A DNA stretch of 64,000 nucleotides from Micromonospora echinospora (lineage in GTDB: Bacteria; Actinomycetota; Actinomycetes; Mycobacteriales; Micromonosporaceae). Location of the stretch: positions 1,922,001-1,986,000 of the forward strand of contig NZ_JACHJC010000001.1 of assembly GCF_014203425.1 (NCBI RefSeq). The letters run 5' to 3'. Positions 4,781 to 7,939 of this stretch are shown here, one piece after another; positions within the stretch are counted from its first letter, which is position 1, and every line of letters starts with the position of its first letter. The position numbers were made by a program, and so were the translations under genes. The notes beneath the pieces are model-generated. The model was not told where the DNA came from. It saw only the letters and a program-made list of their open reading frames with translations, and did not search any database.

Positions 4781-4790
4781 GCGTCGCGTG

Positions 4791-4830
4791 AAAAAGGCCG
4801 CCGCCCGGTGATCCGGGCGGCGGCCTTTTC
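4791..4830 (+). terminator. Rho-independent terminator of etfBA
   Basis: A perfect 13-bp GC stem (4796-4808 with 4813-4825) closes a TGAT loop. It is flanked by AAAAA on the left and TTTT on the right, so it is a classic intrinsic terminator that could work in both directions. It begins 10 bp after the etfA stop codon. Confidence 0.93.
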
Positions 4831-4839
4831 TCGTGGGGA

Positions 4840-4882
4840 GCTGATCGGCGGGCCGGGGAGCTGAGCCGGCCCGCCGATCAGC
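4840..4882 (-). terminator. Inverted repeat ending the rskA-like/sigK-like transcript
   Basis: A perfect 17-bp inverted repeat (4840-4856 with 4866-4882) with a 9-base loop. The right arm contains the stop codon of the anti-sigma gene (4878-4880), so the hairpin forms at the very end of the minus-strand transcript. There is no T-run, which is usual for actinomycete terminators. Confidence 0.75.
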
Positions 4883-5645
4883 CCGTCAGGGTGCCCCTCA
4901 ACAGGCTGTCGCCGGAGTGATCGGGCTTGTTGTCGTACTGCTCCGCGCTGATGTCGACGACGGTGTAGGTGCGCAGGTCGACGTTCCGGGGGATCGGCAG
5001 GAGCGCGTCCCCTGAACCGTTGCTCAGCGTACCCACGGAGAGCATCTCCATCGTCTTCGGATCGATCAGCCAGACCTCGTAGTACCCCGGAACGGTCGGG
5101 AGATTCGTCACGTGGAGATGCAACCGGTTGTCACCGAGCACCCGGGCGTCGCCGGAGGCGTCCTTCGGTGTCGAGCCGAACGCGGCGAGCGGCGCGCTGG
5201 CCACCACCGGCGGCTCGGGATCGGTGTCCGTGCCGCCGCCGAGCACCGCGGCGGTGCCGGCGACACCGATCACCGCGGCGGCGGTGGCGGTGACCGCCGT
5301 GGTCGCCCACCCCGGCCAGCGCCGGCCCCGGCGCGTTCGGCGCGAGGCGGCGGGTACGGCGACCGGCTCGACCGGGTCGGCCGGGCGCGGCAGGCGCCGC
5401 TCGGTCAGCGCCGGCAGTTCCTCGGCGGCCCGGATCTCGGCCACGATGCCCTGCCAGATGTGCTCCGGCGGGTCGGGCAGGTCGGCCAGGCCCTGGGTGC
5501 CCGCGCCGAGTCCGGCGACGTGCTGGAGCGTCTCCATCTCGCCCCGGCAGTGGTCGCAGGTGTCCAGATGGGTGGCCTCACCGTCAGCCGCCTCACTCTC
5601 ACCGAGCGCCAGAAAGACCAGCCGGTCGTGGTCCAGGTGCTGCAC
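4878..5645 (-). CDS. rskA: Anti-sigma factor, RskA-like, zinc-finger type
   Basis: 255 residues. The cytoplasmic N-terminus has the ZAS zinc-binding motif HLDTCDHC (H26-x3-C30-x2-C33) that holds an ECF sigma factor inactive. A linker rich in Pro and Arg leads to one membrane helix (about 113-138). The extracytoplasmic C-terminal ~110 residues match the anti-sigma-K (RskA) domain, including YYEVWLIDPKTMEMLSVGTL. It overlaps the end of the sigma-factor gene by 47 bp, so the two proteins are made together. In mycobacteria the homologue is cleaved by membrane proteases to release SigK. The symbol is by similarity; the signal it senses cannot be read from the sequence. Confidence 0.88.
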   Translation of the reverse strand: MQHLDHDRLVFLALGESEAADGEATHLDTCDHCRGEMETLQHVAGLGAGTQGLADLPDPPEHIWQGIVAEIRAAEELPALTERRLPRPADPVEPVAVPAASRRTRRGRRWPGWATTAVTATAAAVIGVAGTAAVLGGGTDTDPEPPVVASAPLAAFGSTPKDASGDARVLGDNRLHLHVTNLPTVPGYYEVWLIDPKTMEMLSVGTLSNGSGDALLPIPRNVDLRTYTVVDISAEQYDNKPDHSGDSLLRGTLTG

Positions 5646-6204
5646 TGTCCACCTCCCATCTGCGTTTCAAGCTCTGCATGCCGCGTCTGATGTGACTCTT
5701 CACAGTGCCGAGCGGCACTCCCGTCACGGCCGCGATCTGCTGGTGTGTCAGGTCGTCGTAGAACGCCAGCTCCAGCATCCGGCGCTGCTCGTCGGGGAGC
5801 CGGGCCAGCTCGTCGGCGACCACCAGCCGGTCGACCACGGTGTCCGGGTCGGGGCCGGTGGAGACCGGCTCGGGCAGTTGCTTCACCGTCTCGACCACCC
5901 GGGTCTCCCGGGCCGCGGCCCGGATCCGGTCGACCACCTTGCGCCGCCCGATCCCGAGCAGCCAGCCGACCAGTGAGCCTTTCGCCGGGTCGAACGTCTC
6001 CCGGCCCAGCCAGGCGGCGACGAACGTCGCCTGGGTCACGTCCTCTGCGTCGCTGCGGTTGACGAGCGTCGTGGTGGCCAGGTGCAGCACCGCTCGGCCG
6101 TACCGGTCGTACGCCTCTCGCAGGGCGGCCTCGTCGCCGTCGCGGAACCGGGTGGCGAGGTCGTCCTCGCCCGGCGGTTCGGGGCCCTGCCTCGCCGCCG
6201 TCAT
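5599..6204 (-). CDS. sigK: ECF RNA polymerase sigma factor, SigK-like
   Basis: 201 residues from ATG 6204; a GTG/ATG 45 bp upstream is possible but adds a tail outside the family. Region 2 spans about YDRYGRAVLHLATTTLVNRS-DAEDVTQATFVAAW, and region 4 contains LTHQQIAAVTGVPLGTVKSH, the -35-binding helix-turn-helix. There is no region 3, as expected for ECF factors. The partner anti-sigma gene follows with overlap. A promoter-like motif of mycobacterial SigK type (GCATCC, 17 bp, CGAAGG) faces this gene at 6300-6328, suggesting autoregulation; its mirror faces the DUF4397-sortase operon. The SigK assignment rests on the RskA-type partner and region-4 likeness. Confidence 0.88.
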   Translation of the reverse strand: MTAARQGPEPPGEDDLATRFRDGDEAALREAYDRYGRAVLHLATTTLVNRSDAEDVTQATFVAAWLGRETFDPAKGSLVGWLLGIGRRKVVDRIRAAARETRVVETVKQLPEPVSTGPDPDTVVDRLVVADELARLPDEQRRMLELAFYDDLTHQQIAAVTGVPLGTVKSHIRRGMQSLKRRWEVDSAAPGPRPAGLSGAR

Positions 6205-6299
6205 GGGGCGGCTCGCCTTCCGTGGGGCATGCCCGACTGTAACTCCCACAGCCCTCGCCCCACTCTTCCGGTGTGTCCGTGACGACCCTCGTCATCTCT

Positions 6300-6328
6300 C
6301 CTTCGTCGCCGGAAGGCCCGACGGATGC
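6300..6328 (-). promoter_or_regulatory. Candidate SigK-type promoter for the sigma/anti-sigma operon
   Basis: Read on the minus strand: GCATCC (6328-6323), 17 bases, CGAAGG (6305-6300). This resembles the mycobacterial SigK promoter as I recall it (CCATCC, about 17, CGAATA). It is some 95 bp upstream of the sigma gene's ATG and faces away from the similar motif at 6362-6390. Confidence 0.45.
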
Positions 6329-6361
6329 GCCCGGAGACGGGAAAAGAAATCGGATCCGGGC

Positions 6362-6390
6362 GCATCCGGGGGCGACGGAGCCGGCGTAAC
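6362..6390 (+). promoter_or_regulatory. Candidate SigK-type promoter for the DUF4397-sortase operon
   Basis: GCATCC (6362-6367), 17 bases, CGTAAC (6385-6390). The -35-like hexamer and spacing are identical to the opposed motif at 6300-6328, and the -10-like hexamer also begins CG. A transcript from here would have about 45 bases before the AGGAGG-led ATG at 6444. Confidence 0.45.
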
Positions 6391-6443
6391 CCGTTCTGCA
6401 AGCCAGGCCTGACGAATCAGCATGAACTACCAGGAGGCAGACA

Positions 6444-7277
6444 ATGCAGTACGCGATGTTCCGTCGGGTCGCCGCGGGCGGCGCGGTGGCCGCCCTCACC
6501 TTCGCCGGCGTCGGCGCCGCCACCATGAGCCCGGCCTACGCCGCCTCGTCGAAGGTCTCCGTGGTCCACGGCATCCCGGACACCCCGGTCGACGTGTACG
6601 TCAACGGCGAGAAGACGCTGAACAACTTCAAGCCCGGCGACGTGGCCGGCCCGCTCACCCTGCCCGAGGGGGAGTACGACATCGCCCTGACCAAGCCGGG
6701 CGAGGCGATCGACAAGGCGATCCTGAAGGTGGACGACGCCGCGGTGCCGGGCGGGGCGAACATCAGCCTCGCCGCGCACCTGAGCGCCGACGGCAACCCG
6801 CAGATCACGCCGTTCGTCAACGACGTGTCCAAGGTGGGCGCCGGCAAGGCCCGGCTGATCGTCCGGCACACCGCCGCCGCCCCGGCCGTCGACGTGCGGG
6901 CCGGCGGCAAGCCGGTCTTCGAGAACCTGACCAACCCGAAGGAGGCCAAGGCCGACGTGGCCGCCGGCGCGGTGAAGGCGGACGTGGTGCTGGCCGGCAC
7001 CGACACCGTCGCCATCGGCCCGGCCGACCTGAACCTCAAGGAGGGCACCGCCACCATCGTCTACGCCATCGGCTCGGCCGAGGCGAAGAACCTGAGCGTG
7101 GTCGCCCAGACCATCAGCGGCCTGCACTCGGCGCCGGGCGGCGTGCCCAGCGGCACCGGCGGCCAGGCCGGCACCGGCGTGGACACCTGGTGGTACGTGC
7201 TGGCCGGGGCCGGCGTGCTGCTCCTGGTCGGCGGCGGTGCGCGGGTGGCGGCAACCGCCCGGGCCGGTCGCCGGTGA
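6444..7277 (+). CDS. Secreted, membrane-anchored DUF4397 protein
   Basis: 277 residues. A signal peptide (about 1-33, ending in PAYAAS) is followed by a DUF4397 domain beginning KVSVVHGIPDTPVDVYVNG (36-54), with a second similar unit near RLIVRHTAAAPAVDVRAGG. DUF4397 proteins are exported beta-sandwich proteins of unknown role. The C-terminus has a Gly/Thr-rich spacer, one membrane helix (about 246-263) and a basic tail RAGRR. That resembles a sortase sorting signal, but there is no LPXTG-like pentapeptide that I can see. AGGAGG sits 8 bp before the ATG. The stop overlaps the GTG of the sortase gene (GTGA), so the two are coupled. Confidence 0.88.
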   Translation: MQYAMFRRVAAGGAVAALTFAGVGAATMSPAYAASSKVSVVHGIPDTPVDVYVNGEKTLNNFKPGDVAGPLTLPEGEYDIALTKPGEAIDKAILKVDDAAVPGGANISLAAHLSADGNPQITPFVNDVSKVGAGKARLIVRHTAAAPAVDVRAGGKPVFENLTNPKEAKADVAAGAVKADVVLAGTDTVAIGPADLNLKEGTATIVYAIGSAEAKNLSVVAQTISGLHSAPGGVPSGTGGQAGTGVDTWWYVLAGAGVLLLVGGGARVAATARAGRR

Positions 7278-7939
7278 CGGTGCGCAACCGCGGGGCGCTG
7301 GCGGCGATGGCCGCCGGCGCCGCCGCGCTCACCCTGGCGGGCGTGGTGGCGTGCGGGTCCGAGCCCGCCGAGGACGTCGGCGGCGACGAGGTGGCCGCCC
7401 TGTCCAGCGCCACGCCCACGCCCACGCCGGCCGCCCCGGCGTCGGGCTCGGTGCCGGTGAACCCGGGCACGCTGCCCGCCGGCAGCGAGATCGTGCCGCC
7501 GGTGAAGCTGAGCATCCCGCCGATCCGGGTCACCGCCACCGTCGACCCGGTGGGTGTGAACGAGCGCACCGACGAGTTCGAGGTGCCGCCCAGCGTGGAC
7601 CAGGTCGGCTGGTACCGCTACGGCCCGGGGCTGGAGGCCGACGCCGGCTCGGTGGTGATCGCCGGGCACGTGGACAGCGCCGAGCAGGGCAAGGGGGCGT
7701 TCTTCCGGCTGCGCGAGCTGGACCGGGGCGACCGGCTCACCGCCACCGGCTCGGACGGCCGCGAGCGCTCCTACCGGGTGGTGGCCCGGGAGGAGTACCG
7801 GAAGACGAAGATCCCGCTGGAGCGGTACTTCGCGCGCGACGGCAAGCCCCGCCTCACGCTGATCACCTGCGGCGGCCCGTTCGACGCGAAGACCCGGAGC
7901 TACCGGGACAACATCGTGGTCACCGCCGTTCCCCTGTGA
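7274..7939 (+). CDS. Class F sortase, probable lipoprotein
   Basis: 221 residues from GTG 7274, overlapping the DUF4397 stop by 4 bp. The N-terminus has a signal with a lipobox-like VVAC (LAGVVACGSEP), so it may be lipid-anchored; a Thr/Pro-rich linker follows. The sortase domain is complete: His132 in IAGHVDSA, Cys199 in TLITCGG and Arg208/Arg211 in TRSYRDN, the His-Cys-Arg set of sortases. Class F sortases are actinobacterial, usually housekeeping-like or of unknown role, and join a Thr of a sorting motif to a cell-envelope amine. The immediate partner lacks a canonical motif, but an LPITG protein is encoded at 20.6 kb. The operon ends at the hairpin at 7957-8000. Confidence 0.9.
   Translation: MTVRNRGALAAMAAGAAALTLAGVVACGSEPAEDVGGDEVAALSSATPTPTPAAPASGSVPVNPGTLPAGSEIVPPVKLSIPPIRVTATVDPVGVNERTDEFEVPPSVDQVGWYRYGPGLEADAGSVVIAGHVDSAEQGKGAFFRLRELDRGDRLTATGSDGRERSYRVVAREEYRKTKIPLERYFARDGKPRLTLITCGGPFDAKTRSYRDNIVVTAVPL

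Follow-up and report, generated by a model that had tools for sequence, protein, structure and literature searches.

Probable divergent ECF promoters, conserved in relatives, point to a surface-protein regulon, related to SigK and separate from it, in Micromonospora echinospora

Introduction

Between a sigma factor gene and a DUF4397-sortase gene pair of Micromonospora echinospora lie two short promoter-like elements that point away from each other. What are they, and which sigma factor would read them? They stand in the window analysed here, the whole stretch of 64,000 nucleotides from contig NZ_JACHJC010000001.1 (positions 1,922,001 to 1,986,000), whose own numbering is used below. An earlier note on this DNA had read them as SigK-type promoters, through which the adjacent sigma factor would regulate itself and turn on the sortase unit.

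The known system that this locus recalls is that of SigK and RskA in M. tuberculosis and its relatives (mpt83-sigK-rskA). Both pair an ECF sigma factor with a membrane anti-sigma factor that has an RskA_C-type domain, both have surface proteins of the fasciclin (FAS1) family among their known or predicted targets, and both show an ATCC core in the -35 element. MPT70 and MPT83, the products of mpt70 and mpt83, are FAS1 proteins. Both genes are given as SigK targets in the part of PMC7509140 available to us.

The comparisons described here indicate that the two elements are, very probably, real ECF promoters, divergent and conserved, and that they belong to a surface regulon that is SigK-related in kind and forms a separate system.

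Results

The two elements and the genes that they face

The first element, GCATCC-N17-CGAAGG on the minus strand (6328-6300), faces an ECF sigma factor gene at 5599-6249; its -35-like GCATCC occupies 6323-6328 (read 6328-6323) and its -10-like CGAAGG 6300-6305. The second, GCATCC-N17-CGTAAC on the plus strand (6362-6390), has its -35-like box at 6362-6367 and its -10-like CGTAAC at 6385-6390, and faces a DUF4397 gene (6444-7277, with an RBS-like AGGAGG at 6432-6437, 5' of its start) and a sortase gene (7274-7939). The gap between the two -35-like boxes is 33 nt (6329-6361). On direct reading, motifs, strands, 17-nt spacers, gap and directions are all as the earlier note had given them. Both -35-like boxes fall within a perfect 14-bp inverted repeat (6322-6335 and 6355-6368), and the core of the spacer between them (6342-6350) is A/T-rich, a possible shared UP element from this reading and from the relatives. 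The genome scan that the note had called for found GCATCC-N17-CGWA 20 times on the two strands of the 7,125,866-base genome, against 6 matches for the reversed control; two of the 20 are the window sites.

The sigma factor gene, on the minus strand, overlaps the anti-sigma gene. Its product (216 aa) is an ECF sigma factor by its sigma-70 regions 2 and 4 (PF04542 and PF08281/PF04545) and its size of about 200 residues; its best specific NCBIfam matches all lie below cut-off. The anti-sigma factor (4878-5645, minus strand) is of the RskA type, with an N-terminal H-x3-C-x2-C, one membrane span (by eye) and a C-terminal RskA_C domain (PF10099, 46.6 bits, cut-off 29.4). It scores 60 bits on the NF052375 model, below the cut-off of 100. 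HxxxCxxC was also found in 38 of the 42 family anti-sigma factors that were read. At 4785-4835, between the anti-sigma gene and a convergent gene that we take to be etfA-like, a strong GC-rich inverted repeat is followed by T-rich DNA, which by eye looks like a bidirectional terminator.

The DUF4397 protein, encoded on the plus strand, has a signal-peptide-like N-terminus (by eye) and, in a structure model, a pair of beta-sandwich domains with a helix at the C-terminus; the best structural match of the model is the PepT2 extracellular domain. The membrane helix (248-274) is followed by a basic tail. The protein contains no LPXTG-type pentapeptide; just before the helix it has VPSGTGG (7143-7163), a candidate non-canonical sorting signal. 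Aligned C-termini show VPSGxGG at this place well conserved in the family and looser outside it. A nearly identical DUF4397 protein (99%) occurs in Micromonospora chalcea and M. tulbaghiae.

The start codon of the sortase gene, also on the plus strand, overlaps the DUF4397 stop codon. The product contains the general sortase domain (PF04203, 68 bits, cut-off 26.6), and by eye a His, a Cys (TLITC) and an Arg stand out as candidate catalytic residues. Because it reaches only 119.6 bits on the class F model NF033748 (cut-off 166), the best of three models, while passing PF04203, we call it class F-like. Its N-terminus (7274-7390) shows by eye a lipobox-like GVVAC after a hydrophobic segment, and the sortase may be a lipoprotein. 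It probably acts on the DUF4397 protein encoded beside it.

Conservation of the elements in the family

DUF4397 relatives were found in 50 of 150 family genomes (E 1e-10). Their 55 matches, all of which were fetched, make up 54 loci, and misses were kept in the counts. We looked for GCATCC-N17-CGW on each strand within 260 nt upstream of DUF4397. The motif faces DUF4397 in 41 of the 54 loci and lies on the opposite strand in 37, against 0.36 and 0.23, respectively, for dinucleotide-based shuffles of each sequence, which, like the Fisher tests below, ignore kinship. Within DUF4397 coding DNA it was found in none of the 54 loci on either strand. Among 80 named loci, from genomes partly the same as those of the family set, the CGWA form is present in 71 on the DUF4397 strand and in 64 on the other. 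What is strongly conserved is GCATCC, a purine after it, the 17-nt distance and CGWA, the search pattern itself having fixed GCATCC and CGW. The earlier note had staked its reading on the presence of the two motifs in orthologous regions, and there they are indeed conserved.

The 13 family loci without an exact plus-strand motif include some with one-base or 18-nt-spacer variants. GTATCC-N17-CGTA is found in L010, a close relative whose DUF4397 protein is 97% identical, GAATCC-N17-CGTA in L055 and L056, and GAATCC-N17-CGAA in L053. In L055 and L056, both of genus g12, the variant upstream of DUF4397 goes with a diverged sigma factor (53% identity), possibly a natural change of promoter code. 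Another locus, L036, has two tandem copies of GCATCC-N17-CGAA upstream of DUF4397, with starts 33 nt apart and both facing that gene.

A divergent sigma factor gene is present in 39 of the 54 loci, and the motif stands on its side in 33 of these. Four other family loci have the other-strand motif in a flank without a divergent sigma gene; in three of them (L047, L052, L053) the motif points towards a FAS1 gene. The part of the earlier proposal in which the sigma factor controls both its own operon and the sortase unit thus finds a conserved promoter-like element upstream of each, but 6 of the 39 divergent sigma loci lack the motif. Since it also precedes the sigma gene in only 5 of 11 further sigma loci (L083, L085, L087, L090 and L092 among L083-L093), autoregulation appears to be common and not universal.

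The inverted repeat offers another explanation, namely that an ordinary transcription factor binds it as an operator and that the likeness to promoters is incidental. The repeat around the boxes is perfect over 14 bp, and the distances between boxes fall into clusters, as such a site might show. Among 34 family loci with both boxes the gap is 22-24 nt in 16, 33-35 nt in 10 and another length in 8 (13, 27, 56, 68, 69, 76, 83 and 136 nt); among 61 named loci it is 33-35 nt in 46, 23-24 nt in 13, and 56 and 14 nt in one each. As the clusters follow genera, however, we regard them as a lead and not as a test. Against an operator, strong conservation is limited to GCATCC and to CGWA 17 nt downstream, and one-sided copies stand before FAS1 genes and before operons outside the family. 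We consider an operator very improbable and rejected it as a candidate, the arms beyond the boxes being without conservation. Because those outer portions carry little information in relatives, the repeat probably arises incidentally, where the likeness of the two -35 regions runs on beyond the boxes. Relatives show raised A+T on either side, some 12-20 nt upstream of the -35 boxes. With the elements taken as ECF promoters, this would fit a shared UP element, and the clustered gaps would fit a helical phasing of the two promoters.

The elements outside the family

At class level, a DUF4397 relative was found in 52 of 394 genomes (E 1e-20). The set consists of 54 loci covering 56 places, taken as a first 27 and then the remaining 27, which are more distant; flanks were 1500 nt long, some of them ended by contig ends. 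The -35 box stays GCATCC in these loci, while the register of the -10 box reads NGWA, most often GGAA. GCATCC-N17-NGWA precedes DUF4397 in 20 of the first 27 loci and in 15 of the remaining 27 (0.03 in shuffled sequences in either case). The gene order differs from that of the window, a sigma gene standing downstream of the sortase gene on the same strand in 20 of the first 27. Over both sets the motif is present in 28 of 33 loci with a sigma gene in the flank and in 7 of 21 without one (hand tally; Fisher p 0.0003, kinship ignored). DUF4397 relatives L387-L396, at 33-38% identity and without a neighbouring sigma gene, show no motif and are kept in these counts. L180 was scored as a miss but has GCATCC-N17-GGAA at a distance of 749 nt upstream of DUF4397, and the DNA between ends in a FAS1-like C-terminus; FAS1, DUF4397, sortase and sigma genes may form one operon there.

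Relationship of the sigma factor to SigK

Would this simply be the known SigK-RskA regulon in a new host? The pairing of a sigma factor with an RskA_C anti-sigma factor, the related promoter and the FAS1 target would suit that explanation. The SigK label given to the sigma factor in the earlier note is nevertheless not supported, by protein model, clade or promoter code. On the SigK model NF007228 (cut-off 226) the window sigma factor scores 113.2 bits, while two SigK orthologs of the family, L296 and L297, score 277.1 and 268.9 bits. Compared with solved structures, L296 matches M. tuberculosis SigK at 177 bits and the next structure at 78; the window sigma factor matches R. sphaeroides RpoE at 76 and M. 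tuberculosis SigK at 75.

SigK relatives (of L297, E 1e-30) occur in 95 of the 150 family genomes; at the same threshold none was found in the window's own genome. In several genomes, for example G045, G082 and G096, they coexist with the window-type sigma factor. In a tree, SigK sequences form one group (support 99/95), and the sigma factors that go with DUF4397, from the family (the window's included) and from beyond it, form another (96/96). The tree drew on 15 of 44 family, 21 of 22 class-level and 10 of 30 SigK sequences, and the program dropped one row, C_L199; the branch of R. sphaeroides RpoE is long and its placement unsure.

The promoter codes separate as well. CCATCC-N16-CGWA is found upstream of 18 of 30 SigK loci, CCATCC-N17-CGWA upstream of one, and GCATCC-N17-CGWA at none of the 30. 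CCATCC-N16-CGWA lies within 1.5 kb downstream in 11 of the 30, and in L293 and L297 this downstream site precedes a FAS1 gene, which we take to resemble mpt83 in its product. Conversely, CCATCC-N16-CGWA is found at DUF4397 in one of 54 family loci and none of 27 class-level loci. In region 4, His186 is present in 62 of 66 window-type sequences against Arg in 30 of 30 SigK sequences, and Arg189 in 64 of 66 against Asp in 30 of 30; both positions presumably lie within the recognition helix.

Two positions that are Cys in all 30 SigK sequences also differ: among window-type sequences the first is Cys in one of 66, and the second in none among the residues listed. We treat the missing cysteines as a difference and not as proof, and their absence would not by itself exclude SigK, because the part of PMC7509140 available to us describes a functional Nocardia SigK without cysteines and a Cys pair in only 56% of ECF19. 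With model scores, clades and promoter codes all apart, we give a transplanted SigK-RskA regulon scarcely any credence. The window sigma factor belongs instead to an actinobacterial clade separate from SigK, with its own promoter code marked by G as the first -35 base and a 17-nt spacer.

Co-occurrence, FAS1 genes and other unlinked sites

Relatives of the window sigma factor were found in 51 of the 150 family genomes (E 1e-30). Sigma factor and DUF4397 occur together in 48 genomes, DUF4397 alone in 2 (G028, and G116, where the match covers 45 residues), the sigma factor alone in 3 (G030, G090, G122) and neither in 97 (Fisher p 5e-33, kinship ignored). Where the two genes are far apart or on separate contigs (L036 in G143, L052 in G140, L045 in G018) the motif still precedes DUF4397. 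In L062 of G116, a genome of the same genus without the sigma factor, the 45-residue DUF4397 match adjoins anti-sigma and sortase matches, possibly a decaying locus.

We sorted the 20 matches in the window's own genome by a simple reading-frame test, homology and sequence reading. Ten lie within predicted genes; the two window sites, L069 and L072 are upstream of genes; and six (L001, L002, L008, L066, L071, L074), of which L071 and L074 were read, fall outside good reading frames and count against the reading favoured here. L069 lies 81 bp upstream of a FAS1 gene (G000:C1:3980735-3981382), 2.05 Mb from the window. This type of FAS1 protein is present in 28 of 150 family genomes, the window's own included (E 1e-15). 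GCATCC-N17-NGWA was found within 200 nt upstream in 28 of the 30 loci examined (of 32 matches): in all 27 from genomes with the sigma factor and in one of 3 from genomes without it. For three of the FAS1 loci (L239, L262, L264) the intergenic DNA is the same as that of DUF4397 loci already counted (L052, L053, L047). In relatives, GCATCC-N17-CGAA also faces a secreted FAS1-like protein from downstream of the anti-sigma gene (L083, L084, L086, L089, L091) or divergently from the sigma gene (L090); one such protein was tested and scored 41.3 bits on PF02469 (cut-off 22). The unlinked FAS1 site, which the earlier note had missed, is a real functional parallel to SigK.

At L072 (1501-1527; G000:C1:5858876-5858902), an SDR/epimerase gene (PF01370, PF08338) has its start codon 9 nt after the end of GCATCC-N17-CGAA, a layout as for a leaderless transcript. 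Within the genus, where 30 of 39 matches were examined, 19 of the 30 loci have this site, and it co-varies weakly with the sigma factor (14 of 18 with it, 5 of 12 without; hand tally, Fisher p 0.06, kinship ignored).

These data bear on whether the elements, as true ECF promoters, are read mainly by some other sigma factor, with the adjacent one a bystander. Sigma genes are numerous in relatives, with 19 to 25 matches at E 1e-6 in each of G028, G116 and G137, and G116, in which no window-type sigma factor was found, keeps the motif at FAS1; the weak co-variation of the SDR site also leans this way. Set against this are the 48 genomes with both sigma factor and DUF4397 among the 53 with either, even where the genes are unlinked, the tracking of the neighbouring sigma gene by the motif outside the family, and the lack of a SigK match in the window's own genome at E 1e-30. 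We regard a bystander role as unlikely, and favour the adjacent sigma factor as the reader of the elements.

SigK-type elements at FAS1 and DUF4397 genes in two genomes

G028 and G137 yielded no window-type sigma factor, their best matches being at 6e-20 and 1e-17, and both have SigK. Here CCATCC-N16-CGAA stands at the usual distance before the FAS1 gene in both genomes (L255 in G028, L245 in G137) and before DUF4397 in G028 (L020). The pattern has 8 matches in all of G028 (reversed control 1) and 18 in G137 (reversed control 5), among them sites at sigK and at the FAS1 neighbour of sigK. With two genomes, which are few, it is possible that the FAS1 and DUF4397 genes were rewired to SigK-type promoters.

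Discussion

The sequences presented here allow us to outline how the locus may work. An anti-sigma factor of the RskA_C type would hold the neighbouring sigma factor at the membrane. A signal at the envelope would release the sigma factor, presumably by regulated proteolysis, by analogy with what is known for RskA. Free sigma factor would then read GCATCC-N17-CGWA at three places or more in the genome, in front of its own operon, of the DUF4397-sortase pair and of the unlinked FAS1 gene. The predicted products are envelope proteins, namely a membrane-tethered two-domain DUF4397 protein, a sortase for which it would be a substrate, and a secreted FAS1 protein. We put the probability of this reading, with divergent ECF promoters and a sigma clade distinct from SigK, at roughly 85%. 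Because the promoter code is found again in relatives, and also ahead of a surface-protein gene far away, the whole looks to us like a conserved surface regulon, related to SigK yet distinct from it. Beyond clade, promoter code and the Cys pair, the window-type system differs from SigK-RskA in that its anti-sigma factors mostly have HxxxCxxC and that its targets include the DUF4397-sortase operon.

The N-terminus of the window anti-sigma factor gives a further point of comparison. HLDHDRLVFLA matches the helix-1 consensus of AS19-2, HLDPDQLALLA, at 7 of 11 positions by eye, while the N-terminus of the SigK-partner anti-sigma factor in L296 (IHALAGAYALDAV) resembles AS19-1 (consensus sequences in the part of PMC7406223, mSystems 2020, available to us). 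According to the same part of that paper, AS19-1 and AS19-2 both partner ECF19 sigma factors, to which binding may have evolved independently; it gives no target genes, promoter code or function for AS19-2, and the word sortase is absent from its main text. The grouping of M. tuberculosis SigK differs between sources, being ECF18 in the portion of PMC7509140 that we used and having AS19-1 as its partner group in that of PMC7406223. In the literature searched, we found no paper that treats ECF19 together with a sortase, and no prior report of a sigma-controlled sortase unit. The 2021 ECF re-classification, which was outside that search, reportedly lists gene neighbourhoods, and the pairing of sigma factor and sortase may already be on record in it.

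In Actinoplanes missouriensis, which belongs to the same bacterial family, the joint deletion of all four class F sortases, SrtF1-SrtF4, caused no phenotypic change (PMC13251363, here and below from the part available to us). This counts against assigning a firm function to the surface unit, and the physiological roles of class F sortases are described as remaining unknown (PMC13251363). Genes next to srtF1 and srtF4 encode proteins that have a signal peptide, a membrane segment and a basic tail, lack a pentapeptide and were named as possible substrates (PMC13251363); the window DUF4397 protein has a layout of this kind. Unlike the window unit, SrtF1-SrtF4 have no regulator linked to them in that text.

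On a wider scale, we lean towards the idea that a class-wide surface regulon of actinobacteria has gone unrecognised, whose sigma factor, a relative of SigK, is set apart from it by a single base of the -35 element and a single base of spacer, with genes switching from one sigma factor to the other by those features. The back-to-back promoters would share the A/T-rich spacer, and the two preferred lengths, near 24 and 34 nt and about one helical turn apart, suggest a coupling of two polymerases that sit on the same face of the DNA.

If the reading of the locus outlined above is right, one group of class F-like sortases would be tied to a dedicated sigma/anti-sigma pair with a readable promoter code, and a likely sortase substrate could be named together with a co-regulated FAS1 protein. 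The predicted condition-dependent expression could explain why sortase deletions show no phenotype. A target set is also suggested for AS19-2-like anti-sigma factors. Finally, the locus and its relatives would provide a natural case of two related sigma factors that use nearly identical and yet separate promoters and between which genes seem to have been rewired in nature.
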